Shown piece by piece: positions 54,852 through 64,000 of a stretch of DNA of 64,000 bases. This stretch comes from an uncultured Clostridia bacterium (GTDB lineage: Bacteria; Bacillota; Clostridia; Oscillospirales; Ruminococcaceae). A model generated the notes under the pieces. It saw only the letters and a list, made by a program, of their open reading frames with translations, ran no database searches and was not told the DNA's origin. Numbering within the stretch: the first letter of the stretch is position 1; each line of letters begins with the position of its first letter. A program made the position numbers and the translations under genes. The stretch is from the NCBI GenBank assembly GCA_947632025.1, contig CANRNN010000003.1, positions 62,001 to 126,000 of the forward strand, in the 5' to 3' direction.

Positions 54852-55519
54852 TTGATCACCGCCTTGTAGCCCAAGCCGTGAACTGTCTGAATTTCAAACT
54901 CGTCGCAATCGGAAAATTTATCGCGGAGTTTTGTCATATAAACATCGACAGCGCGCGGCGCGGTGTTGGTTTCCGCGTCCCAGAATTCGTCCATAAGCTG
55001 CGTTCGCGTGAACGTCTTTTTCGGGTAGGACAGCAGCTTGTAAATTATGTTGAATTCCCGCGCTGTAAGCGGAATTTCCTGCCCATCGAAAACCGCCGTC
55101 CGTTCGTCCGCGTCAAGCGTTAATTTGCCGATTTCAAGGCGGTGACTTGCGGCAATTTTTGACCGCCTGAGCAGCGCCCCGATACGCAAAAACAGCTCGT
55201 CAAGGTCGATAGGTTTCACCATATAATCGTCTATCCCGATACGATAACCGCGCTGTTTTGACGCGAAATCGTCGCGCGCCGTCATAAACAAAATCGGTAT
55301 ATTTTCATTCAACTCACGCACAGTTTTCGCGAACTCAAACCCGTCAATTTCGGGCATCATAATATCGGAAATCACGAGGTCGAATGTGTTATTATACATT
55401 GCATTATACGCGTCGTTTGCGTTAAGACAGCCCTCCGCAGTATAACCGCTTTGATTTAAAAACGCGCACACCGCATGGTTTAAATCTTTGTCGTCCTCAA
55501 CTACAAGTATTTTGAACAT
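54848..55519 (-). CDS. OmpR/PhoB-family response regulator
   Basis: 223 aa. Receiver with acid pair at 9-10, phosphoacceptor Asp52 (LVISDIMMPEIDG) and Lys in DDYMVKPIDLDE; C-terminal winged helix (PLTAREFNIIYKLLSYPKKT, VDVYMTKLRDKF). The frame is open 10 codons further up, but AAAGGAGG fits the ATG at 55519. Its promoter contains two TTAACA boxes 11 bp apart, suggesting autoregulation. Confidence 0.94.
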   Translation of the reverse strand: MFKILVVEDDKDLNHAVCAFLNQSGYTAEGCLNANDAYNAMYNNTFDLVISDIMMPEIDGFEFAKTVRELNENIPILFMTARDDFASKQRGYRIGIDDYMVKPIDLDELFLRIGALLRRSKIAASHRLEIGKLTLDADERTAVFDGQEIPLTAREFNIIYKLLSYPKKTFTRTQLMDEFWDAETNTAPRAVDVYMTKLRDKFSDCDEFEIQTVHGLGYKAVIK

Positions 55520-55539
55520 TTCCCAACCTCCTTTCTTAT

Positions 55540-55571
55540 ATTGTAGCACATAAATGTTAAAGTTTTGTTAA
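55540..55571 (-). promoter_or_regulatory. Response-regulator operon promoter with TTAACA boxes
   Basis: Minus strand: two direct TTAACA repeats (55571-55566 and 55560-55555, 11-bp period), 9 bp, then -10 TACAAT (55545-55540). There is no clear -35, as in activator-dependent promoters bound by OmpR/PhoP-type regulators. Confidence 0.7.
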
Positions 55572-55586
55572 GATTTTTAAGAAGCT

Positions 55587-55622
55587 GAAAAAATTTTTGA
55601 CCCACATTTTTTAATGCAGGTC
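55587..55622 (-). terminator. Probable terminator of the three-gene small-protein operon
   Basis: Minus strand GACCTGCAT/ATGTGGGTC stem (55622-55599, two G-U pairs) followed by AAAAATTTTTT. Placed between the KKIE-repeat gene and the response-regulator promoter. Confidence 0.5.
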
Positions 55623-55629
55623 GTAAATT

Positions 55630-55854
55630 TTATTTTGCAGAATTTCGCTTTGTAATGCGCTTTTTCGCGTCCTCGGCAGTTTCGCCCTCGTGAGTTAAAA
55701 ACGTATCAACGAATTTATCCTCGATTTTTTTATAACTGCCGACAACTCCATCCTCAATTTTTTTGTAACTGTTGACGACGCCGTTTTCGATTTTCTTATA
55801 GCCCTCAACAACGCCGTTTGCTATCTTTTCGTTTGCTTCAATAAATTTTGACAT
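55630..55854 (-). CDS. Small protein with 11-residue KKIE repeats
   Basis: 74 aa. An imperfect 11-residue unit (consensus GVVxxYKKIEx) is repeated about 3.5 times in residues 13-50, predicted as one amphipathic helix; a short charged C terminus follows (GETAEDAKKRITKR). AAGGAG precedes the ATG. No family recognised with certainty. It is cotranscribed with two small membrane proteins and could lie on the membrane surface. Confidence 0.78.
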   Translation of the reverse strand: MSKFIEANEKIANGVVEGYKKIENGVVNSYKKIEDGVVGSYKKIEDKFVDTFLTHEGETAEDAKKRITKRNSAK

Positions 55855-55888
55855 AACACATTCTCCTTAATCTAAAATTTTTGATACC

Positions 55889-55984
55889 TCAAGCCGTTCT
55901 TTTTCTGCGGATAAAAACTGCAAAAACAGCCGCGATACCCGAAACCACAGTTGCAATTACTGCGGGAATTACAAACTTTTTCAT
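55889..55984 (-). CDS. 31-residue single-helix membrane protein
   Basis: Perfect ribosome site AAGGAGGTG before an ATG at 55984; one hydrophobic helix (FVIPAVIATVVSGIAAVFAVF) then IRRKRTA and stop. Lies between the 122-aa gene (12 bp) and the KKIE gene (34 bp) in the same direction. Small enough to be missed by gene callers; RBS and operon context make it convincing. Confidence 0.72.
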   Translation of the reverse strand: MKKFVIPAVIATVVSGIAAVFAVFIRRKRTA

Positions 55985-55996
55985 ATTTACACCTCC

Positions 55997-56365
55997 TTAC
56001 TTCAAACCAACGCACATCGGTATAAGGCACAGCAGAAGAACTATCCCCGCAAGCCCTACAACAATGCCCAAAATCATCATGTCGAACACCATAACCATGC
56101 ACATTCCGACTCCCAGAACCAGTGCGCCTAATACCCCGAATGCAATTTTCCCGACGGTTTTCGGATTGATTTTCAGCGCAGGTTTTCCGAGAATAACTCG
56201 CCGCGCGATAAATGTTGCAATCAGTACTGCGCCACCTATTGCCGCAAGTATTACTCCTGCCGTGAACGCGTTCCATTCCGGGAGCAAGCACATACACATT
56301 CCCAGCGCGAACGCCAACCCTCCGATAACAGCACCTATCAGTGTGTAAAAATTTGCCTTTTTCAT
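55997..56365 (-). CDS. Four-helix small membrane protein with internal GMCM repeat
   Basis: 122 aa, four membrane helices. The two halves resemble each other (ALGMCMCLLPEW...AGVILAAIGGAVL and VLGVGMCMVMVFD...LGIVVGLAGIVLL), pointing to internal duplication; the 123-aa protein at 52492 carries a third copy. GGAGG precedes the ATG. First gene of an operon with a TTAACA-box promoter matching that of the response regulator. Function unknown. Confidence 0.78.
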   Translation of the reverse strand: MKKANFYTLIGAVIGGLAFALGMCMCLLPEWNAFTAGVILAAIGGAVLIATFIARRVILGKPALKINPKTVGKIAFGVLGALVLGVGMCMVMVFDMMILGIVVGLAGIVLLLCLIPMCVGLK

Positions 56366-56423
56366 AGTAAATACCTCCGTTGTTTAATTTGTGAGTTTTG
56401 TTACTGTCTCACTTGCTGATTGT

Positions 56424-56466
56424 ATTTTACAACACGAATGTTAAATATTTTTTCAAGAATTGTTAA
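56424..56466 (-). promoter_or_regulatory. Small-protein operon promoter with TTAACA boxes
   Basis: Minus strand: TTAACA (56466-56461), a degenerate TGAAAA (56455-56450) and TTAACA (56444-56439), all at 11-bp periods, then 9 bp and -10 TAAAAT (56429-56424). The spacing between box and -10 equals that at the response-regulator promoter. Confidence 0.7.
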
Positions 56467-56475
56467 GGTTTTATT

Positions 56476-56509
56476 AAAAATAAAAAATCGGCAAAAAAGC
56501 ATTCGCCGA
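56476..56509 (-). terminator. Terminator downstream of the tRNA-Arg repeat array
   Basis: Minus strand TCGGC/GCCGA stem with a 12-nt loop (56509-56488) followed by TTTTTTATTTTT. Would end any read-through from the tRNA-Arg unit before the TTAACA promoter. Confidence 0.55.
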
Positions 56510-56583
56510 CCTGTTTTTATCAATTTTTAATTATAAGGCTGTTTTTATTATGATGTTCAACTCCTGTAACTTATTATACAAAA

Positions 56584-56819
56584 AACGTCCCACAGAAACC
56601 TGCGAGACGAACTTGACGCCGGTCATATTGGCTGTCTGACCTTCTATAAAAAGATTAACATTATATCAAAACATTCCCAGCAGAGCAACCTCTGCTGGGA
56701 AAAGGTCAAGGGCATTGCCCTGCTGTCTAACCTTTATAATAAAGATTTCCTTGAAGTCGAGCGAAAACAAAACGTCCCGCAGGCACCTGCGAGACGAACT
56801 TGCTGCCGGTCACACCGGC
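56584..56819 (-). repeat. Array of three two-hairpin tRNA-trailer repeats
   Basis: Unit A adjoins tRNA-Arg: GCCGGT-GTG-ACCGGC (56819-56805), then CGTCTCGCAGG/CCTGCGGGACG (56796-56773) with GTTTTGTTTT. Unit B: AGGGC-AAT-GCCCT (56721-56709) and CCCAGCAGAG/CTCTGCTGGG (56699-56676). Unit C: a decayed GCC...GGC hairpin and CGTCTCGCAGG/CTGTGGGACG ending TTTTTT. Units A and C are one subtype; B matches the copies after tRNA-Glu and tRNA-Gln. Confidence 0.75.
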
Positions 56820-56896
56820 TGGTACGCCAGGAGGGATTCGAACCCCCGACCCTCTGGTTCGTAGCCAGATACTCTATCCAGCTGAGCTACTGGCGC
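56820..56896 (-). tRNA. tRNA-Arg (anticodon ACG)
   Basis: Acceptor GCGCCAG/CTGGCGT, D arm TAGCTCAGCTGGATAGAG, anticodon stem-loop TCTGG-CTACGAA-CCAGA, T arm GGGGGTTCGAATCCCTC, encoded CCA. A34 would be modified to inosine. Confidence 0.95.
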
Positions 56897-56942
56897 ATAT
56901 TATAGTACAAACTCCTACTCCGTTCGTACTGCAACACTATAT

Positions 56943-56971
56943 ATTATAACACATTAGCTGCGGTTTGTCAA
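56943..56971 (-). promoter_or_regulatory. Consensus SigA promoter of tRNA-Arg
   Basis: Minus strand TTGACA (56971-56966), 17 nt, TATAAT (56948-56943). Confidence 0.92.
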
Positions 56972-57006
56972 GGGGGTTTTTCAATTTTTTTGCAAATTCT
57001 TCTTGT

Positions 57007-57252
57007 TTACTTCTTTGCACGCTCCGCAACTATAGAAATCATCTCGCCGACATTCTTCATGCCGCTCACTTCTTTCATTGTAAAGCGCATTCTGAACTCC
57101 TTTTCCACTGCCGAAATAAGGCTTATGTGTTCAAGCGAATCCCACGCCTCAATGTCGTTTGCGGTTGTGTTGTCCGTAAGCACTATGCTGTCGTCGTCAA
57201 ACACATCGCGAAACACTTCCGTCAACCGTTTTCTTACAACTTCTCTGCCCAT
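57007..57252 (-). CDS. Acyl carrier protein of the surface-acylation cluster
   Basis: 81 aa. The motif IEAWDSLEHISLI carries Ser39, the phosphopantetheine site; the WDSL form is typical of ACPs that partner FkbH-like enzymes or D-alanine-type systems, not fatty-acid synthase. ATG at 57258 overlaps the fkbH-like stop, but the RBS fits the ATG at 57252. Last gene of the operon. Confidence 0.9.
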   Translation of the reverse strand: MGREVVRKRLTEVFRDVFDDDSIVLTDNTTANDIEAWDSLEHISLISAVEKEFRMRFTMKEVSGMKNVGEMISIVAERAKK

Positions 57253-57254
57253 TG

Positions 57255-59039
57255 TCATTCTCCTTCGTTTACCTTTATTTGAGTTTCAATAGGCTCAAAG
57301 CCTTCAACGTCCAGTTTCCATACGGTCTGATTTTCGTCCTCGGATACTTTTTCAAAGCCGAATTCTCCGTAAAGCTCCTTTACCATTCCGTTCTTTTTTG
57401 TCGGAAGATAGTAGCCGAAAATTTCCTTTATACCGCGCTTTTTTGCAGAATCCACAAGCTCGTTGAGCATAGCGTATTCCATTTTTCGTTTGAGGACACG
57501 GCAGCTCATAAGCCATAGCTCCATATGCAACTTTTCACCGTCGGTTTTTCCGATAACTACCGAAACAATGCCGTTGTCGCCGAATTTATCTGTCAGCCGC
57601 CCGCAAAGGCGGATATATTCCGGCGACTTTGCCGTGCGTTCCATTTCTTCCTGTGTAAAGCGTTTTGTAGTAAGGTTGAACTGGTTGCTCTTGTTTGTAA
57701 GCTGCGTTATCCGCGGGATATGCACAGGCTCAAAATCCGTTATCTGCGCCCTCATTTCAAGTGACGCGAGAAAATCCTCATAGCTTGCGAACTGCTTTTC
57801 GAGAGCCGCTCTTTCGGCGTTTTCACGGTACATCTCCGCACGGCGGGAATCGTCCTCCGAAAGGTTCGTCGTTTCAAAAAATCCGCACCCGTCAATAGCC
57901 ATAATGCACTCTTCGGGAGTGTCAAAATCAAGCACCGTGACCTCAGGCAGCTGTGCCCTTACTATCGCTCTTTCAGCGGGATTATCGTCTACGAAAACTA
58001 TGCTTTCGGGAAGAAGATTTAATTCCCGTGCGGTTTCTTCGAGATTGCGCCACTTTTCGTCCCAGTTTGCCTTAATGCACGCAAAGTCCTCCGGACGCAG
58101 AACACCGTCAGGGTGATTCAGTCCCTCAAGCGCGTTTTCCGGATCGTTTTTGGAACACACCGTCAACAGCACGCCCAATTTCTTGAATTCTTTAAGATAC
58201 TTCTGCAAACGCAGAAAACTCTGTCCGACGGAGGTTTCGTTTCCTATTTCTATCCCTGCCTGACCGTCGTCGCCGATAACTCCGCCCCAAAGCGTATTGT
58301 CAAGGTCGAGAGCTATGACCTTCTTGTTCCTTCCGAGAACAGAACATATTATCTTCGACAGCGAATACGCAAACGTCGGTATAGCGTCTACTGAGAGAGC
58401 GTATTTATACATGTGCCAGTGCCGCTCCTCATGCCATTTGTAAAGTCCGTAGCTTGCCGCAAGGTAATTTATATCGTGAATATAAAATCCCTTGTGCGTT
58501 TTTGCGTAACCGTAAAGCCGCTCGTTCAGGCGAGTTATGAAGTCCACCATACCGTAAGAGCAGCCTGCCTCACGGTTTCCGAGAAGCCTCTGCGGCGGCA
58601 GCTCGAAATTATTCTGGATTATCGGGCAGCCGAATTTTTCGCTTATGGAGTCCCACATTCGTTCAAAACGCGAATATTCCCGCGAGAGCTTCTCCCCGAC
58701 GGAATTTTCCGATTCGAGAACATCGGGCGTTTCCTCGATATTCCGATAGCTTGTGTGGATAAACGCAAGCTCCGGCTTGAACGAGATAAGCTCCTCACTC
58801 GGAAACACGGCGTCGTTGAAATACATATTGTACTCGCTTTCCCAAAACGTCGGGATTATCCCTCTGTCGCGCAGAAAAAGCTCCAGCACTTTCACAATAT
58901 CGGAAGTCGTCGAGCCGCCGAAAACCGCTATACGAAGCGGTATCCCGCCGCTTTCCGACTCTTTCAGCTTTCGGAGGAGCTTTTTCTTTGAAAGCATTAT
59001 CATATCCGAGTCGAACGGAAAACGAAGTTCTTCAAGCAT
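57255..59039 (-). CDS. FkbH-like HAD-IIIC enzyme
   Basis: 594 aa. N-terminal SGNH-like region (RIAVFGGSTTSDIVKVLELF), a central HAD domain with nucleophile Asp in VIALDLDNTLWGGVIG and acid motif SIVFVDDNPAER, and a C-terminal GNAT-like part (LWLMSCRVLKRKMEYAML). FkbH proteins take 1,3-bisphosphoglycerate and load a glyceryl unit onto an ACP. The ACP gene overlaps its stop, so it probably charges that ACP. Other acyl groups cannot be excluded. Confidence 0.86.
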   Translation of the reverse strand: MLEELRFPFDSDMIMLSKKKLLRKLKESESGGIPLRIAVFGGSTTSDIVKVLELFLRDRGIIPTFWESEYNMYFNDAVFPSEELISFKPELAFIHTSYRNIEETPDVLESENSVGEKLSREYSRFERMWDSISEKFGCPIIQNNFELPPQRLLGNREAGCSYGMVDFITRLNERLYGYAKTHKGFYIHDINYLAASYGLYKWHEERHWHMYKYALSVDAIPTFAYSLSKIICSVLGRNKKVIALDLDNTLWGGVIGDDGQAGIEIGNETSVGQSFLRLQKYLKEFKKLGVLLTVCSKNDPENALEGLNHPDGVLRPEDFACIKANWDEKWRNLEETARELNLLPESIVFVDDNPAERAIVRAQLPEVTVLDFDTPEECIMAIDGCGFFETTNLSEDDSRRAEMYRENAERAALEKQFASYEDFLASLEMRAQITDFEPVHIPRITQLTNKSNQFNLTTKRFTQEEMERTAKSPEYIRLCGRLTDKFGDNGIVSVVIGKTDGEKLHMELWLMSCRVLKRKMEYAMLNELVDSAKKRGIKEIFGYYLPTKKNGMVKELYGEFGFEKVSEDENQTVWKLDVEGFEPIETQIKVNEGE

Positions 59040-59057
59040 AATGGATCTCCTTGAAAA

Positions 59058-60902
59058 TCAGTAAATTTCGGGAAGTTCATGGCGGTTCGGACCCATTGCC
59101 GAGAACGTGTTCCACATAAACAGCAAGTCCGTTATTTCCTTTTCCTTGCAGAATTCCGAAACGGATTTCTGGAAATATCTCATATCAACTACCCATATTT
59201 CTTCAAAGGAATTTGTGAGGTTCGCGGTGAGGGCGTTGCCGTAGCTGTCTTTTATCATAAGTAACTTACGTCCGTTATGGCAGTCTGTCTTGACGTGTGT
59301 CACAACGTCGTCCGTTCCTATAAACACAAGATAATATTCCGAGGCATTCAGGCTCTGCAAATTGAGTATAAGCCGTCTGTCCGTGCGCTCGTTGGTCATA
59401 TCGGAATTATAGTAGTCTGTCGTGTAGGAATTGGTGGGCTTGTAAAGCGTAAACGTTTCGGGGTGATTCTTTATTGACGGGTGGTAGCCGCTGTATCGGT
59501 TCATTGAGCCTAAAAATCCGTCACGCGTTTCCACCTCATAGGTAGACAGGTCGGGCACGGGAGCGTTCGCGGTCCTTGCAAACTCCTGCGCCGCGTAGAA
59601 TGCTCCGAGCGAAGTCCAGTGGTGGTCGGTTTTTAGATAAATATCCTCATTGACGTGCTGTGAAAGCACCGAATATGCGTCCACGGGAGTTATGCCCTCC
59701 AGCTTGCTGTAAAGGTAGTCGATCATCGGCTTTTCCTCTGCGGAAGCGTTCTTGTATTCCTCCGGCAGGTAGAACGACACCGCCGTCGGCGCAATAAGGG
59801 CATACATATCCACGTCAGGAAGAAGCTCCTTGAAGTGATTCATATACGACGCACATTCGTCGGCGGTACTTTTACCCGCGCCGAACAGTGACATTCCGCG
59901 TCCCGACGGCAGAACAAGCACTGAACCGGACATTTCCGCACCGTCCTCATGCTGTTCGGGAACTTCCTGCTGAGCGCTGCTCGATGAACTTTGAGATGTA
60001 CCGGAAGTGCTCTGTGAGGAACTGCCGCTCACATCTAAGGCTTTGCTTGATGTGTTCACAGGATTCTTGAAGCTTGTTGACTGTGACGTAACGTTTGCGG
60101 TCGGCGGAACGTCGTCCGAGGGCTTTATCGGGTCGCCGACTATCGCGACTCCGCCCTTGTACGGTATTCCGATAATCGCGCGGAACGACGCTATCATATC
60201 CTTGAACGTGCTTCTCAAAGGCACGGTATCATTGTAGAACGCTGCGAATTTTTCGGTGAACTCGCCTTTGAAATAACTATCCCATGTAAACGTAGGGCAC
60301 TTGTTCAAATCACGGAATTCCTCATAGGAAACCGTCGGGCGCTTGCCGAACGTCATAAACAGCGTACAGAACACAAACACGACCATAACCGCCGAGATAT
60401 TGAACACGCGAAAAGCATTCTCGCGGCGCTTGCTTTGCTCCTGAATACGTTTTTTGCGCAAGCGAAGCCGCTCGTCCTGCGTCATAGCGTGCTTTTGCTG
60501 CTGGTCGGGGCTTTGTTTTTTCGGCGAAGCGTCGGGATTTGTGTTGATGGTGCGCGGGCTGATATTGCTCGTTCTATGTGTCCCGCCTGATGTACCTTCC
60601 GAAGCCGGACGTGTTCCCTGCCGCCCTGTCATAAGAGGATTGTCGGGATTTTTCCGCACAGTCGGAGAAGATGTTTTTCTCGGTACATTTTCCGAAGCAC
60701 GGGCTGACGCTCTTTTTTCGGAGTTTGCCGCGGAATTTGCCGAATCCGCGAGATGCTTTGCCTGCTCTGACTGCGCTTTGCGCCTTGCGGCGATATGCTC
60801 CGGATCAAGCTGTCTTGCGCGCTCGCTGTCGCGGTTGTCATTATGTGAAAGATTGCGTGTCTGTTCTGAACGCTCTGAGGCACGTTTTTTATTGTTGTCC
60901 AT
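59058..60902 (-). CDS. DHHW-family (AlgJ/AlgX-like) surface-polymer acyltransferase
   Basis: 614 aa. A long, charged, Ser/Arg/Asn-rich cytoplasmic N terminus (1-165), one membrane helix (about 169-190) and an outside domain. A Ser/Gln/Thr-rich linker (about 265-320) precedes the SGNH-like core with the LKTDHHWTSLGAFYAA motif. Family members with MBOAT partners complete acyl transfer to exported polysaccharide. Follows the MBOAT gene by 12 bp. The N-terminal extension is unusual. Confidence 0.85.
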   Translation of the reverse strand: MDNNKKRASERSEQTRNLSHNDNRDSERARQLDPEHIAARRKAQSEQAKHLADSANSAANSEKRASARASENVPRKTSSPTVRKNPDNPLMTGRQGTRPASEGTSGGTHRTSNISPRTINTNPDASPKKQSPDQQQKHAMTQDERLRLRKKRIQEQSKRRENAFRVFNISAVMVVFVFCTLFMTFGKRPTVSYEEFRDLNKCPTFTWDSYFKGEFTEKFAAFYNDTVPLRSTFKDMIASFRAIIGIPYKGGVAIVGDPIKPSDDVPPTANVTSQSTSFKNPVNTSSKALDVSGSSSQSTSGTSQSSSSSAQQEVPEQHEDGAEMSGSVLVLPSGRGMSLFGAGKSTADECASYMNHFKELLPDVDMYALIAPTAVSFYLPEEYKNASAEEKPMIDYLYSKLEGITPVDAYSVLSQHVNEDIYLKTDHHWTSLGAFYAAQEFARTANAPVPDLSTYEVETRDGFLGSMNRYSGYHPSIKNHPETFTLYKPTNSYTTDYYNSDMTNERTDRRLILNLQSLNASEYYLVFIGTDDVVTHVKTDCHNGRKLLMIKDSYGNALTANLTNSFEEIWVVDMRYFQKSVSEFCKEKEITDLLFMWNTFSAMGPNRHELPEIY

Positions 60903-60914
60903 TATTTCTCCCCC

Positions 60915-62348
60915 TTAATAATTCCAGTACAGGAACACATTTGTCGTTGCGTCCACGAGAAGCACGCTTGAAAGCAGCAGAAGTCCCACGCTTAAAACCG
61001 TTCCCGAAACAGAAACAAGCGATTTTACGTTCTCCGATTTTTGCGAAAGCTTCTTGAATCCGTCAACAAGCGGGAACGAGCAGATCACCGCCGCAATAAC
61101 AAGGAACAGATTGTTCGCCATTAACATTTCTACCGTCATATCCGACCAGCCGTTGGCATTTGTGGGGAGCAGGCACTTCAGGAAAGTTCCGAGGTTCCCC
61201 AGATCCTCGAAGAAGAATATCCCGAATCCTATGGTGATGACCAGCTTTGTGTATATATGCCGTATCAGCATCGGGATCTTCGCTATTCTCTTCTTTCCCA
61301 GAGCTGTTTCAAACATTATAAAGCAGCCGTAGTACAGTCCCCAGATTATGTAGTTCCAGTTTGCGCCGTGCCATATTCCCGTACAGAGCCACACGAGGAA
61401 AAGGCTCGTGTACTTGTTGCGTATTCCGAACACGGGTATAGGCAGCAGATAATCACGGAAGAACGACCCCAGCGAAATATGCCATCTCTGCCAGAATTCC
61501 GTAATATCCTTGCACAGATACGGGTGGTTGAAGTTTTCATTAAAGTGGAATCCGAAGATGCGCCCCAGACCGATCGCCATATCGGAATATCCCGAAAAGT
61601 CAAAATATACATAAAGAGAATATACTATGACGCCGTACCACGCCCCAAGGATCGTAAGCCCCGAAATATCATTCTTGCCTATTGTGCTGTCAACTATCCT
61701 GTAGAGCTGGTTGGCGAGGATAACTTTCTTCGCAAGTCCCATTATGAATCTGGATATTCCCGTGCTTATATCGGCAACAGTCGAGCGGCGGTTATCTATC
61801 TCCTCCGCGATAGTGCTGTAGCGCACGATAGGTCCCGCAATAAGCTGCGGGAACAGGCAGATGTACAAAAGCAGCTTGTAAAAGCTCAACTGCGGCTTGA
61901 CTTTCTCCCAGTAACAGTCGATAACGTAGGACATCACCTGAAACGTGTAGAAGCTTATTCCTATCATCGGCACGATATCCGGCACGGGAAGCTCCGCGCC
62001 GAATATCCCGTTGATATTTGTCACTACAAACCGGCTGTATTTGAAAACCCCTATCATACCTATATTGAACACCAGACTTACCGCGAGAAGTATCTTGCGG
62101 CGGAGCGTAGGCGTGGAAAGGTCTTTTTTAAGTTCAACTCTTGTAGGCGAAACTCCCATTCCGAGAAAATAGTTCACCACAGCCGAAAGCAGCAGATACA
62201 GCACTCTCACCGGCTCTCCCCACGAATAGAACAGCAGCGAAAACACGATAAGGACGCCGTTTTTCCCCTTCAAAGGCTTGATAAGAAAGTAGAAAAGCAT
62301 ACACAAAGGCAAAAAAGCGTACAGAAAGATCAAGCTTGAAAATACCAT
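60915..62348 (-). CDS. MBOAT-family O-acyltransferase (AlgI/PatA/DltB-like)
   Basis: 477 aa, about ten membrane helices. The catalytic His lies in CTGIWHGANWNYIIWG; FWQRWHISLGSFFRDYLLPI is the conserved AlgI/DltB block. It moves acyl groups from a cytoplasmic donor through the membrane. GGGGAG precedes the ATG. First gene of the four-gene operon. Confidence 0.93.
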   Translation of the reverse strand: MVFSSLIFLYAFLPLCMLFYFLIKPLKGKNGVLIVFSLLFYSWGEPVRVLYLLLSAVVNYFLGMGVSPTRVELKKDLSTPTLRRKILLAVSLVFNIGMIGVFKYSRFVVTNINGIFGAELPVPDIVPMIGISFYTFQVMSYVIDCYWEKVKPQLSFYKLLLYICLFPQLIAGPIVRYSTIAEEIDNRRSTVADISTGISRFIMGLAKKVILANQLYRIVDSTIGKNDISGLTILGAWYGVIVYSLYVYFDFSGYSDMAIGLGRIFGFHFNENFNHPYLCKDITEFWQRWHISLGSFFRDYLLPIPVFGIRNKYTSLFLVWLCTGIWHGANWNYIIWGLYYGCFIMFETALGKKRIAKIPMLIRHIYTKLVITIGFGIFFFEDLGNLGTFLKCLLPTNANGWSDMTVEMLMANNLFLVIAAVICSFPLVDGFKKLSQKSENVKSLVSVSGTVLSVGLLLLSSVLLVDATTNVFLYWNY

Positions 62349-62390
62349 GTTTTATTCTCCCCATTTTTAGACATTTTATAATATAGTATT

Positions 62391-62419
62391 ATTATAGCGC
62401 AAAAAAACTCACTTGTCAA
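62391..62419 (-). promoter_or_regulatory. Consensus SigA promoter of the MBOAT-DHHW-FkbH-ACP operon
   Basis: Minus strand TTGACA (62419-62414), 17 nt, TATAAT (62396-62391), about 40 bp before the MBOAT ATG. The remaining gap to dpaA (62420-62572) is AT-rich with no clear SigA promoter for dpaA. Confidence 0.88.
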
Positions 62420-62572
62420 GCGGATTTTATCACAAATTTAGTTACAATTTTGTAAACATTTCAGCAAATCCGCTTCTGTGAAACTTCCTGCAAAAATATA
62501 TACGACGTTTTTGAAAGGAGTTTAACACAAAATCAGGCTTTTGCATATTATGTGTCAAAGGGGGGTGCGACT

Positions 62573-63373
62573 ATGGATATATTGTTTATCGGCGGTGACA
62601 AGCGAATGGAATATGCCGCAAATGCGCTTTTGGGGGATTTTTCGGTCAGACAATACAGCGGCGCGGCTTTTCCCGAAAGCAAGTTTTCGGCAGCGGTGCT
62701 GCCTTTGCCTTTTTCAAAAAAAGATGGAGAGGTATTTGCTCCGCTGTCTGATAAGCCGATACCATTTGAGATTATTCCGGATCTGGTCGGGACGGGCGGC
62801 ATTGTTTTTTCAGGAGGAGAAAACGAGCGGCTTGCAAAACTTTGCGCCGAAAATTCGCTGAAGCTCGTAAATTATTTCGCGTCGGAAGCTCTCACTCTGA
62901 AAAACGCAGCGCTTACGGCGGAAGCCGCCTGTGCTTTACTTATAGAAAGTTCGGAGGGCTCGCTTCTGGATTCAAAGGTCCTTATTTCGGGCTACGGCAG
63001 GATAGGGGAGCTTTTGGCGGCACGGCTGAAAGCGTTCGGGTGCAGTGTGACTGTCGCCGCCCGCCGTGAAGCTGTGCGTGTCAAGGCAAGGCTCGACGGA
63101 TCTTACTCGACGGATTTTTCAGAAATCATGCCGCGGCTTTCGGAATTTGATTTTATAGCGAACACCGTACCGTGCGGTTTGTTCGGGGAGCGGGAATTAT
63201 CCGAGTATACGGGAGTTTTTTTGGAGCTTGCGTCCGTTCCCGAATATCACGGAAAAGTTGGCGGGAAATACATTTACGCTTCGGGACTTCCGGGAAAATA
63301 TTCGCCTAAAAAAGCCGGAGAATTTATTGCCGAGGAGATACGCTCATTCTGCGAAAGCCTGAACTTAAATTGA
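62573..63373 (+). CDS. dpaA: Dipicolinate synthase subunit A
   Basis: 266 aa. NAD(P)-binding Rossmann core at about residues 130-165 (KVLISGYGRIGELLAARLKA) and the N-terminal FIGGDKRMEYAANAL typical of DpaA/SpoVFA, which forms dipicolinic acid with DpaB in the mother cell. AAGGGGGG fits the ATG at 62573 better than a GTG seven codons upstream. dpaB follows. Confidence 0.92.
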   Translation: MDILFIGGDKRMEYAANALLGDFSVRQYSGAAFPESKFSAAVLPLPFSKKDGEVFAPLSDKPIPFEIIPDLVGTGGIVFSGGENERLAKLCAENSLKLVNYFASEALTLKNAALTAEAACALLIESSEGSLLDSKVLISGYGRIGELLAARLKAFGCSVTVAARREAVRVKARLDGSYSTDFSEIMPRLSEFDFIANTVPCGLFGERELSEYTGVFLELASVPEYHGKVGGKYIYASGLPGKYSPKKAGEFIAEEIRSFCESLNLN

Positions 63374-63483
63374 AACAAAGAAAAAACGGCTCGAAAGGGA
63401 ATTTTGTTTTCTTTTCAGGAACTCTGTTTTTCGGAATATACCGCGCATCTGCGCGTCCAAATCTACATACGAAAGGAAATGCT

Positions 63484-64000
63484 ATGAACGATTTACAGAA
63501 ACTTTCGGGACTGCGGCTCGGCTTTGCGGTCTGCGGCTCGTTCTGTACGTTCGCCAAGGCGTTCGGCACGGCGGAAAAGCTTGTAAAGCTAGGCTGTGAA
63601 GTCACACCGATAATGTCTTTTAACGCTGCCGCCCTTGACACACGCTTCGGTTCTGCCCGTGACAACATAACCAAAATAACCGAGATCACAGGGAAAGAGC
63701 CTCTTTGCGATATACCCTCAACCGAGCCTATAGGACCCAATAAAATGTTTGACGCTCTTGTCGTCGCGCCGTGTACGGGAAATACCCTCGCGAAGCTGGC
63801 GCTAGGTATTGTTGATACGCCTGTTTGTATGGCGGTAAAAAGCCACCTGCGCAATTCGCGTCCAGTGATAATAGCTGTTTCAACAAACGACGCTCTGGCG
63901 GGCGCAGCGAAAAATATCGGTGCGCTTATGAATTTACGAAATTATTATTTTGTTCCGTTCGCTCAGGACGACTGCGAAAAAAAGCCTAATTCTCTTGTCG
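63484..64000 (+). CDS. dpaB: Dipicolinate synthase subunit B (partial, 3' end outside window)
   Basis: 172 codons to the edge; flavoprotein-type fold (RLGFAVCGSFCTFAKAFG, VVAPCTGNTLAKLALG, PFAQDDCEKKPNSLV) characteristic of DpaB/SpoVFB. AAAGGAA precedes the ATG. The 110-bp gap after dpaA holds a short CGCGC/GCGCG hairpin (63442-63455) without a T-run. Confidence 0.93.
   Translation, partial: MNDLQKLSGLRLGFAVCGSFCTFAKAFGTAEKLVKLGCEVTPIMSFNAAALDTRFGSARDNITKITEITGKEPLCDIPSTEPIGPNKMFDALVVAPCTGNTLAKLALGIVDTPVCMAVKSHLRNSRPVIIAVSTNDALAGAAKNIGALMNLRNYYFVPFAQDDCEKKPNSLV

Follow-up and report, generated by a model that had tools for sequence, protein, structure and literature searches.

A four-gene cluster from an uncultured gut Clostridia bacterium of the Ruminococcaceae (GenBank assembly GCA_947632025.1) probably encodes a carrier-protein-fed machine for the acylation of the cell envelope. 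The cluster lies in a stretch of 64,000 nucleotides of the contig CANRNN010000003.1, designated here as the window, and its genes encode, in order, an MBOAT membrane acyltransferase, a DHHW-family protein, an FkbH-like enzyme and an acyl carrier protein (ACP). It is proposed that the FkbH-like enzyme charges the ACP, the MBOAT exports the acyl group and the DHHW protein esterifies a glycan with it. That a dedicated FkbH/ACP pair feeds an MBOAT/SGNH-type acyltransferase is argued for by the operon structure, the co-occurrence of the genes when they are unlinked, the repeated recruitment of FkbH/ACP to MBOATs, and a changed loop in the MBOAT.

The open reading frame list places the cluster on the minus strand at positions 62348-57007, with 12 bp between the MBOAT and DHHW genes, 18 bp between the DHHW and FkbH-like genes, and a 4-bp overlap between the FkbH-like and ACP genes. 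One perfect promoter site lies upstream. The gene set, the spacing and the single promoter, described earlier in a sequence-only reading of this DNA, were thus borne out.

Loop and lineage of the MBOAT

MBOATs encoded away from FkbH ("free" MBOATs) read YIPLGGNR or a near variant after the first active-site histidine. The core of this segment, LGG[NS]R, is present in 42 of 43 MBOATs outside the FkbH-linked groups: 19/20 free MBOATs with a DHHW partner, 11/11 other free MBOATs and 12/12 DltD-linked MBOATs. It is absent from all 61 MBOATs of the window's type (operon type) and from all 16 unlinked MBOATs of the same type (0/77 together). Among 40 other FkbH-linked MBOATs, eight have the motif; four of them (L210, L121, L167 and L201) have no ACP beside them and four are from loci with a further MBOAT. 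When only loci with a single MBOAT are counted, the motif is absent in 79/79 with an ACP on the same strand and present in 4/7 without one. Six named MBOATs from plasmids, none with an ACP listed, all have LGG[NS]R, and one of them adjoins algF. It is found in none of three alphaproteobacterial MBOATs near ACP and FkbH (Sinorhizobium meliloti, Rhodobacteraceae SC52 and Tistrella mobilis). In S. meliloti, an FkbH relative is encoded on pSymB of strain 2011, and MBOAT and ACP genes adjoin it in strain RCAM1750.

DltB, a known user of a carrier protein, also has no LGG[NS]R in the aligned segment 299-313. Papers are cited here by PubMed Central identifier. The residues of DltB in contact with DltC are Met302, Val305, Ile306 and Met309 (PMC11035591), and the aligned segment contains all four; the residue numbers of DltB were counted from the alignment and checked on His289. 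It may be that the loop change marks the docking of the ACP on the MBOAT, which is a correlation and not a proof. Hydrophobicity of the segment 300-309 was rejected as a general rule, the values being 1.13 for the operon type, 0.39 for free MBOATs with DHHW and -0.28 for the other FkbH-linked MBOATs. Two further positions are characteristic: Trp147 is found in 77/77 and Gln287 in 76/77 operon-type MBOATs, and free MBOATs with DHHW mostly have Arg or Lys there (19/20 each).

The window MBOAT scores 86 bits against PF03062 (cut-off 27), and both MBOAT histidines were found in all the MBOAT groups aligned. Its closest solved relative, by sequence and by fold, is DltB, which is also the best match of the predicted structure (mean predicted local distance difference test score, pLDDT, 83; under 50 for the last 11 residues). 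The DltB equivalog model gives 160.8 bits and its cut-off of 375 is not reached. The FkbH-free MBOAT of the window's own genome scores alike (161.3 bits), and the score was therefore rejected as an indication of an ACP donor. A C-terminal motif of the FxYxxF type is the acyl shuttle of PatA/AlgI-type MBOATs (PMC12148441). The tail F.Y..[FY] is found in 60/61 operon-type MBOATs, window included (56/61 for strict FxYxxF), and in 16/16 unlinked ones; elsewhere, it is found in 20/20 free MBOATs with DHHW, 10/11 other free, 12/12 DltD-linked and 37/40 other FkbH-linked MBOATs.

A tree was built from 84 MBOATs: the window MBOAT, 26 of the 60 other operon-type, 20 of the 40 other FkbH-linked and six of the 12 DltD-linked MBOATs, 30 comparison MBOATs, and the second MBOAT of the window's own genome. 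The operon-type MBOATs constitute one side of a branch inside the DHHW-coupled MBOATs (27 rows; SH-like approximate likelihood ratio test, SH-aLRT, 85, or 100 with L210). A second, distant clade of FkbH-linked MBOATs, mostly from Lachnospiraceae, includes 16 rows (SH-aLRT 100). FkbH/ACP were therefore joined to MBOATs at least two times in Clostridia.

Linkage with FkbH and ACP across loci and genomes

Two samples of loci were surveyed. The public sample includes 80 loci retrieved with the window FkbH protein, and it is not random, since resemblance to the window decided which loci entered it. The family sample includes 98 FkbH loci (100 stretches less L123 and L218). When genes were counted within 6 kb on the same strand, the arrangement of MBOAT, DHHW, FkbH and ACP was found in 32/98 family and 28/80 public loci; a search for the four-gene cluster elsewhere, proposed as a check in the sequence-only reading, thus succeeded. 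An ACP is encoded in 80/80 of the fetched public stretches and an MBOAT in 67/80. Among the remaining family loci, seven have an MBOAT without DHHW, four a DHHW gene without MBOAT, and 15 none of these genes. The FkbH tree (97 rows, sampled) largely follows the locus architectures.

Co-occurrence was analyzed in 297 genomes of the family, the window's own included, with the ACP counted at an e-value of 1e-10 or better. Every one of the 107 genomes with the ACP is also among the 114 that have an FkbH relative (Fisher 4e-73). The seven FkbH genomes without the ACP are G082, G103, G122, G148, G174, G213 and G269. At a limit of 500 bits against the window MBOAT, 47 genomes have an operon-type MBOAT, and 45 of them have FkbH (Fisher 2e-19); the two exceptions are G016, which is 55% complete, and G252. 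Four partial-match MBOATs beside FkbH (G156, G224, G277 and G063) and the MBOAT of G099 fall below the limit.

Sixteen stretches around MBOATs away from FkbH encode MBOAT and DHHW (eight), MBOAT alone (four, including those from G016 and G252), or MBOAT, DHHW and ACP (four). The last four come from as many genomes, all of one genus, which encode a diverged FkbH at another site. Conversely, the ACP was found at a distant site in five genomes whose FkbH has no adjoining ACP: G220, G151 and G054 (the genomes of L121, L122 and L167), G274 and G079. A split genome, G132, encodes a DHHW protein with letters matching 4nzk/EUBSIR_00411 in an operon DHHW-DHHW-FkbH-ACP (L128), and an operon-type MBOAT and a further DHHW gene elsewhere. 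We infer that G132 is Eubacterium siraeum.

The adjacency of MBOAT and FkbH was set aside as a sole argument. MBOAT genes are near-universal (280/297 genomes), and therefore the clade, co-occurrence and motif tests were used instead. The linkage of MBOAT, FkbH and ACP is not chance. A chance meeting of MBOAT and FkbH would also be rare in the window's own genome, because this genome (2.36 Mb, 31 contigs) has only two MBOATs and one FkbH, and the arrangement recurs. Its second MBOAT is paired with DHHW (L005, 7618-10296, minus strand) without FkbH or ACP beside it, and is thus a useful internal control; by the LGG[NS]R rule it is CoA-type (coenzyme A as donor).

Other architectures were observed around FkbH. 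A recurrent operon in the same family encodes FkbH, ACP, MaoC and a ketoreductase, followed by a weakly GNAT-like protein of about 330 residues (PF00583 with e-value 0.002 in one case), with no MBOAT (L174, 5513-9832; L196, L187 and L202). This operon may make lactyl and transfer it inside the cell. Split transketolase genes (N- and C-terminal halves) lie between FkbH and MaoC/ACP in L062 (4090-5841), and the same clusters recur in three loci (L062, L063 and L066), which may point to two-carbon chemistry close to the glyceryl unit. Several FkbH/ACP/MBOAT loci from Lachnospiraceae (L065, L069, L074, L075, L079, L100 and others) adjoin an oppositely oriented MBOAT gene and a DltD-like gene. The MBOAT beside the DltD-like gene has a fused tail of the FIYFQF type, and these loci are larger, with GDSL, DUF6044 and glycosyltransferase-like genes.

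The enzymes and their neighborhood

The features of the cluster are listed in Table 1.

Table 1. Positions of the cluster genes and their characteristic elements in the window.
Feature	Position	Strand	Evidence
MBOAT membrane acyltransferase, 477 aa, both MBOAT histidines (H290, H327)	60915..62348	-	PF03062 E 3e-24; DltB closest by sequence and fold
MBOAT residues 300-313 (YLLPIPVFGIRNKY)	61410..61451	-	Alignments; position of YIPLGGNR in CoA-type relatives and of DltB helix HC, which binds DltC
Putative C-terminal acyl-shuttle motif of the MBOAT, FLYWNY with Tyr474 (F-x-Y-x-x-[FY])	60918..60935	-	Sequence motif; role from PMC12148441
DHHW-family SGNH-like extracytoplasmic O-acyltransferase, 614 aa, one membrane anchor behind a long N-terminal tail	59058..60902	-	PF14286 E 2e-47; motifs
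FkbH-like protein, 594 aa: FkbH_N, HAD-IIIC and GNAT-fold C-terminal domain	57255..59039	-	TIGR01686 E 7e-87; 3slr match; conserved residues
Dedicated ACP, 83 aa, phosphopantetheine serine Ser41 (codon 57138-57136)	57007..57258	-	D-S-L site; PDB match
Predicted sigma-70-type promoter, TTGACA-17-TATAAT	62391..62419	-	12/12 consensus match, consensus only; 42 bp 5' of the MBOAT start codon

The FkbH-like protein reaches 291.5 bits with TIGR01686 (cut-off 146.65) and 42 bits with PF21211 (FkbH_N). Its residues D245, D247, T249, S296 and C513 are conserved in 180 of 181 aligned proteins, and K329, D351 and D352 in all 181. The alignment takes in two references, from Methylosinus and Pseudalkalibacillus, whose loci encode FkbH, ACP, an E2-like acyltransferase and a ketoacyl synthase (KAS III), a tetronate-type glyceryl-ACP context; the motifs of the window protein are identical to theirs. 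The formation of glyceryl-ACP is the known reaction of the FkbH family (PMC7489565). Cys513, the conserved cysteine of the SCR motif, may hold the glyceryl group. In the predicted structure (mean pLDDT 88), the N-terminal and HAD parts match BF1531 (3slr) and the C-terminal part matches GNAT enzymes. The ACP scores 17.1 bits with PF00550, under the cut-off of 20.8, and has the D-S-L attachment site. In the PDB it matches best the putative ACP 2lml (e-value 2e-20), which we take to be GmACP3.

The DHHW protein scores 162.6 bits with PF14286 (cut-off 25) and has the motifs Ser553, D426-H-H-W429 and D573-x-R-Y576, corresponding to the Ser, DHHW and DxRY motifs of PatB1 (PMC9487903). Among 90 DHHW relatives of at least 330 residues, all three motifs were found in 57 and DHHW in 84, according to our own patterns. 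The closest solved structure is 4nzk (e-value 1e-70), the DHHW protein EUBSIR_00411 of Eubacterium siraeum (PMC9487903); PatB1 (5v8e) follows with e-value 4e-10. About 160 basic, Ser-rich residues precede the membrane anchor (60423-60902, minus strand), a tail longer than in many relatives. Tandem full-length DHHW genes (at least 330 residues), up to four, lie between MBOAT and FkbH in L046, L050, L052 and other loci. Two or more DHHW genes are present in 16 of 69 DHHW-bearing loci, some with lipoprotein-like starts, and possibly they serve several acceptors for one donor.

The cluster stands alone, with divergent genes upstream, presumably dipicolinate-synthase-like, and a tRNA-Arg gene (56896-56820) downstream. 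The first terminator-like site listed on the minus strand is at 56796, past the tRNA gene, and an Rfam scan of 55500-64000 revealed tRNA only. Directly upstream of tRNA-Arg lies another perfect promoter site (56943-56971, minus strand), whose -10 element is preceded by TG.

Proposed route, alternatives and meaning

The HAD domain of the FkbH-like enzyme would dephosphorylate 1,3-bisphosphoglycerate and load D-glyceryl onto the holo-ACP, as the intact motifs suggest. The glyceryl-ACP would dock at the cytoplasmic face of the MBOAT, at loop 300-313, to which the sequence correlation and the DltB-DltC structure point. The tunnel of the MBOAT would carry the glyceryl group to its own Tyr474 outside the membrane, by analogy with PatA. 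Ser553 of the DHHW protein would take the group and esterify a hydroxyl of an exported glycan, by analogy with PatB1 and PatB.

The Dlt system, which D-alanylates teichoic acid with DltA-D and DltX, passes the acyl group from a carrier-protein thioester to an MBOAT, a tyrosine shuttle and an SGNH-type protein (PMC12148441). The window system is similar to Dlt in that the fold of the MBOAT is closest to DltB and LGG[NS]R is absent in both. An ACP gene is linked and co-inherited, and the ACP would be the donor. It is different from Dlt in that an FkbH-like HAD enzyme stands for the DltA ligase, a fused shuttle for DltX and DHHW for DltD; neither a DltA-type ligase nor DltX is encoded in the four-gene operon, no search for DltA having been made in the remaining genome. 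The FxYxxF-type tail of the MBOAT and the DHHW partner with Ser, DHHW and DxRY are shared with PatA1/PatB1 of the Bacillus cereus secondary cell wall polysaccharide, PatA/PatB and AlgI/AlgJ. All these pairs are said to take acetyl from acetyl-CoA with no carrier protein involved, and a 2025 paper states that MBOAT/SGNH systems other than Dlt have none (PMC12148441); the window system, in contrast, has the ACP and FkbH, and LGG[NS]R is gone. The FkbH score over the cut-off, the HAD motifs, the SCR cysteine and the adjoining ACP are those of tetronate and methoxymalonyl FkbH/ACP modules, but the output of those modules enters polyketide synthesis, and here it would go to the membrane acyltransferase pair. 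EUBSIR_00411 (4NZK) links the closest solved DHHW structure with an FkbH-ACP operon (L128), although the operon-type MBOAT and a further DHHW gene of that genome lie outside the operon, unlike in the window.

The best reading of the system is a hybrid of Dlt, for the carrier protein, and PatA/PatB, for the built-in shuttle. The sequence-only reading had inferred an ACP-bound glyceryl or similar group passed across the membrane by a DltABCD-like logic. The dedicated FkbH/ACP pair feeding an MBOAT/SGNH pair stood up. The simple Dlt-like logic did not, in view of the absence of a DltA-type ligase from the cluster, the DltB score under the cut-off and the PatA-like shuttle tyrosine fused to the MBOAT. 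The core idea of that reading was of the right kind but oversimplified: the proposed machine is PatA/PatB-like, with a Dlt-like donor fed by FkbH.

The acceptor is most likely peptidoglycan or a capsule or exopolysaccharide. A profile search of the window's own genome gave no match to PF00884, PF04464 or PF00395, which makes lipoteichoic acid, glycerol-phosphate wall teichoic acid and SLH-binding polymers improbable acceptors. Glyceryl substituents are known on gellan and welan (PMC11768204). Among open-licence PubMed Central papers, none was found on the gellan acyltransferase of Sphingomonas.

Several points weigh against carrier-protein-fed acylation as proposed here. The motif LGG[NS]R was chosen after seeing the data; its first form, PLGG, was absent in three of six named controls and was then relaxed, and only SC52 and Tistrella were new test cases after the widening. 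The 500-bit limit for operon-type MBOATs was set by eye, also after seeing the data, the Fisher tests ignore the kinship of the genomes, and the 30 comparison MBOATs in the tree are the best-scoring ones and not a random draw. L121, L122 and L167 pair FkbH with an MBOAT without an adjoining ACP, and in two of the three the MBOAT still has LGG[NS]R. The shuttle motif of the window MBOAT ends in Y, not F, and the window FkbH is only about 32% identical to the tetronate-context references. Finally, in 40 of the 98 family loci MaoC, a ketoreductase or both are encoded but no MBOAT lies within 6 kb, which means that FkbH/ACP serves another purpose, too. The FkbH/ACP module thus has two or more kinds of output, of which the window represents the one with MBOAT and DHHW.

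Such tailoring genes are the basis of the alternative that survives best, though we regard it as unlikely: the same ACP-fed MBOAT route with a group altered by enzymes encoded elsewhere, such as lactyl, pyruvyl or methylated glyceryl. Bryostatin-type loading of lactyl by FkbH, dehydratase and ketoreductase prompted the idea of lactyl. Dehydration and reduction of glyceryl-ACP would yield lactyl-ACP, and lactyl may be the product of those variants that have MaoC and ketoreductase. MaoC accompanies an MBOAT within 6 kb in 9/80 public loci and is found without MBOAT in 37/98 family loci, and a SAM (S-adenosylmethionine) methyltransferase gene lies beside FkbH and ACP in Tistrella and Paroceanicella. 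However, MaoC is within 6 kb in none of the 60 loci with FkbH, ACP, MBOAT and DHHW, only one of which has a ketoreductase-like gene, and the window operon has neither. Plain glyceryl is favored as the transferred group, because no tailoring gene is in the operon.

It is improbable that the MBOAT and DHHW proteins perform ordinary O-acetylation with acetyl-CoA, FkbH/ACP being an unrelated pathway in a shared operon. Such pairs without FkbH/ACP, one of them being the second pair in the window's genome, are common and held to O-acetylate (PMC9487903, PMC7710045), but the operon MBOATs constitute a clade apart from the other pairs, uniformly lack LGG[NS]R, and go together with FkbH and ACP over the 297 genomes even when unlinked. 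Less probable still is that the four genes make a glyceryl-containing small molecule or glycolipid for secretion: the cluster is outside any glycan locus and FkbH/ACP pairs are chiefly familiar from polyketide and tetronate pathways (PMC7489565), but the operon has no synthase, condensing or cyclizing enzyme, and a wall polymer is the substrate of the characterized DHHW protein (PMC9487903).

The MBOAT/SGNH systems known so far transfer acetyl taken from CoA, or D-alanine taken from DltC. No description of an FkbH/ACP-fed MBOAT system was found in the titles or abstract starts of open-licence PubMed Central papers; those retrieved for FkbH together with MBOAT were two on cyanobacterial peptides. 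More tentatively than the route itself, it is suggested that such systems may be a third class of envelope acylation, with an FkbH-charged ACP as the donor. This class may have several origins, two among MBOAT lineages of Clostridia and others in Alphaproteobacteria, each with loss of LGG[NS]R as the CoA-recognition element, and may place glyceryl, or lactyl after tailoring by MaoC and ketoreductase, on the surface glycans of common gut and soil bacteria. If carrier-protein-fed acylation is correct, the presence or replacement of LGG[NS]R would be a sequence rule to predict a CoA or ACP donor for unassigned MBOATs, and the donor choice of MBOATs would become directly testable. The solved but unassigned structure 4NZK would obtain a biological setting. 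Glycolysis would supply a three-carbon hydroxy acid, via a carrier protein, to the decoration of the wall or capsule in many gut Oscillospiraceae and Lachnospiraceae.

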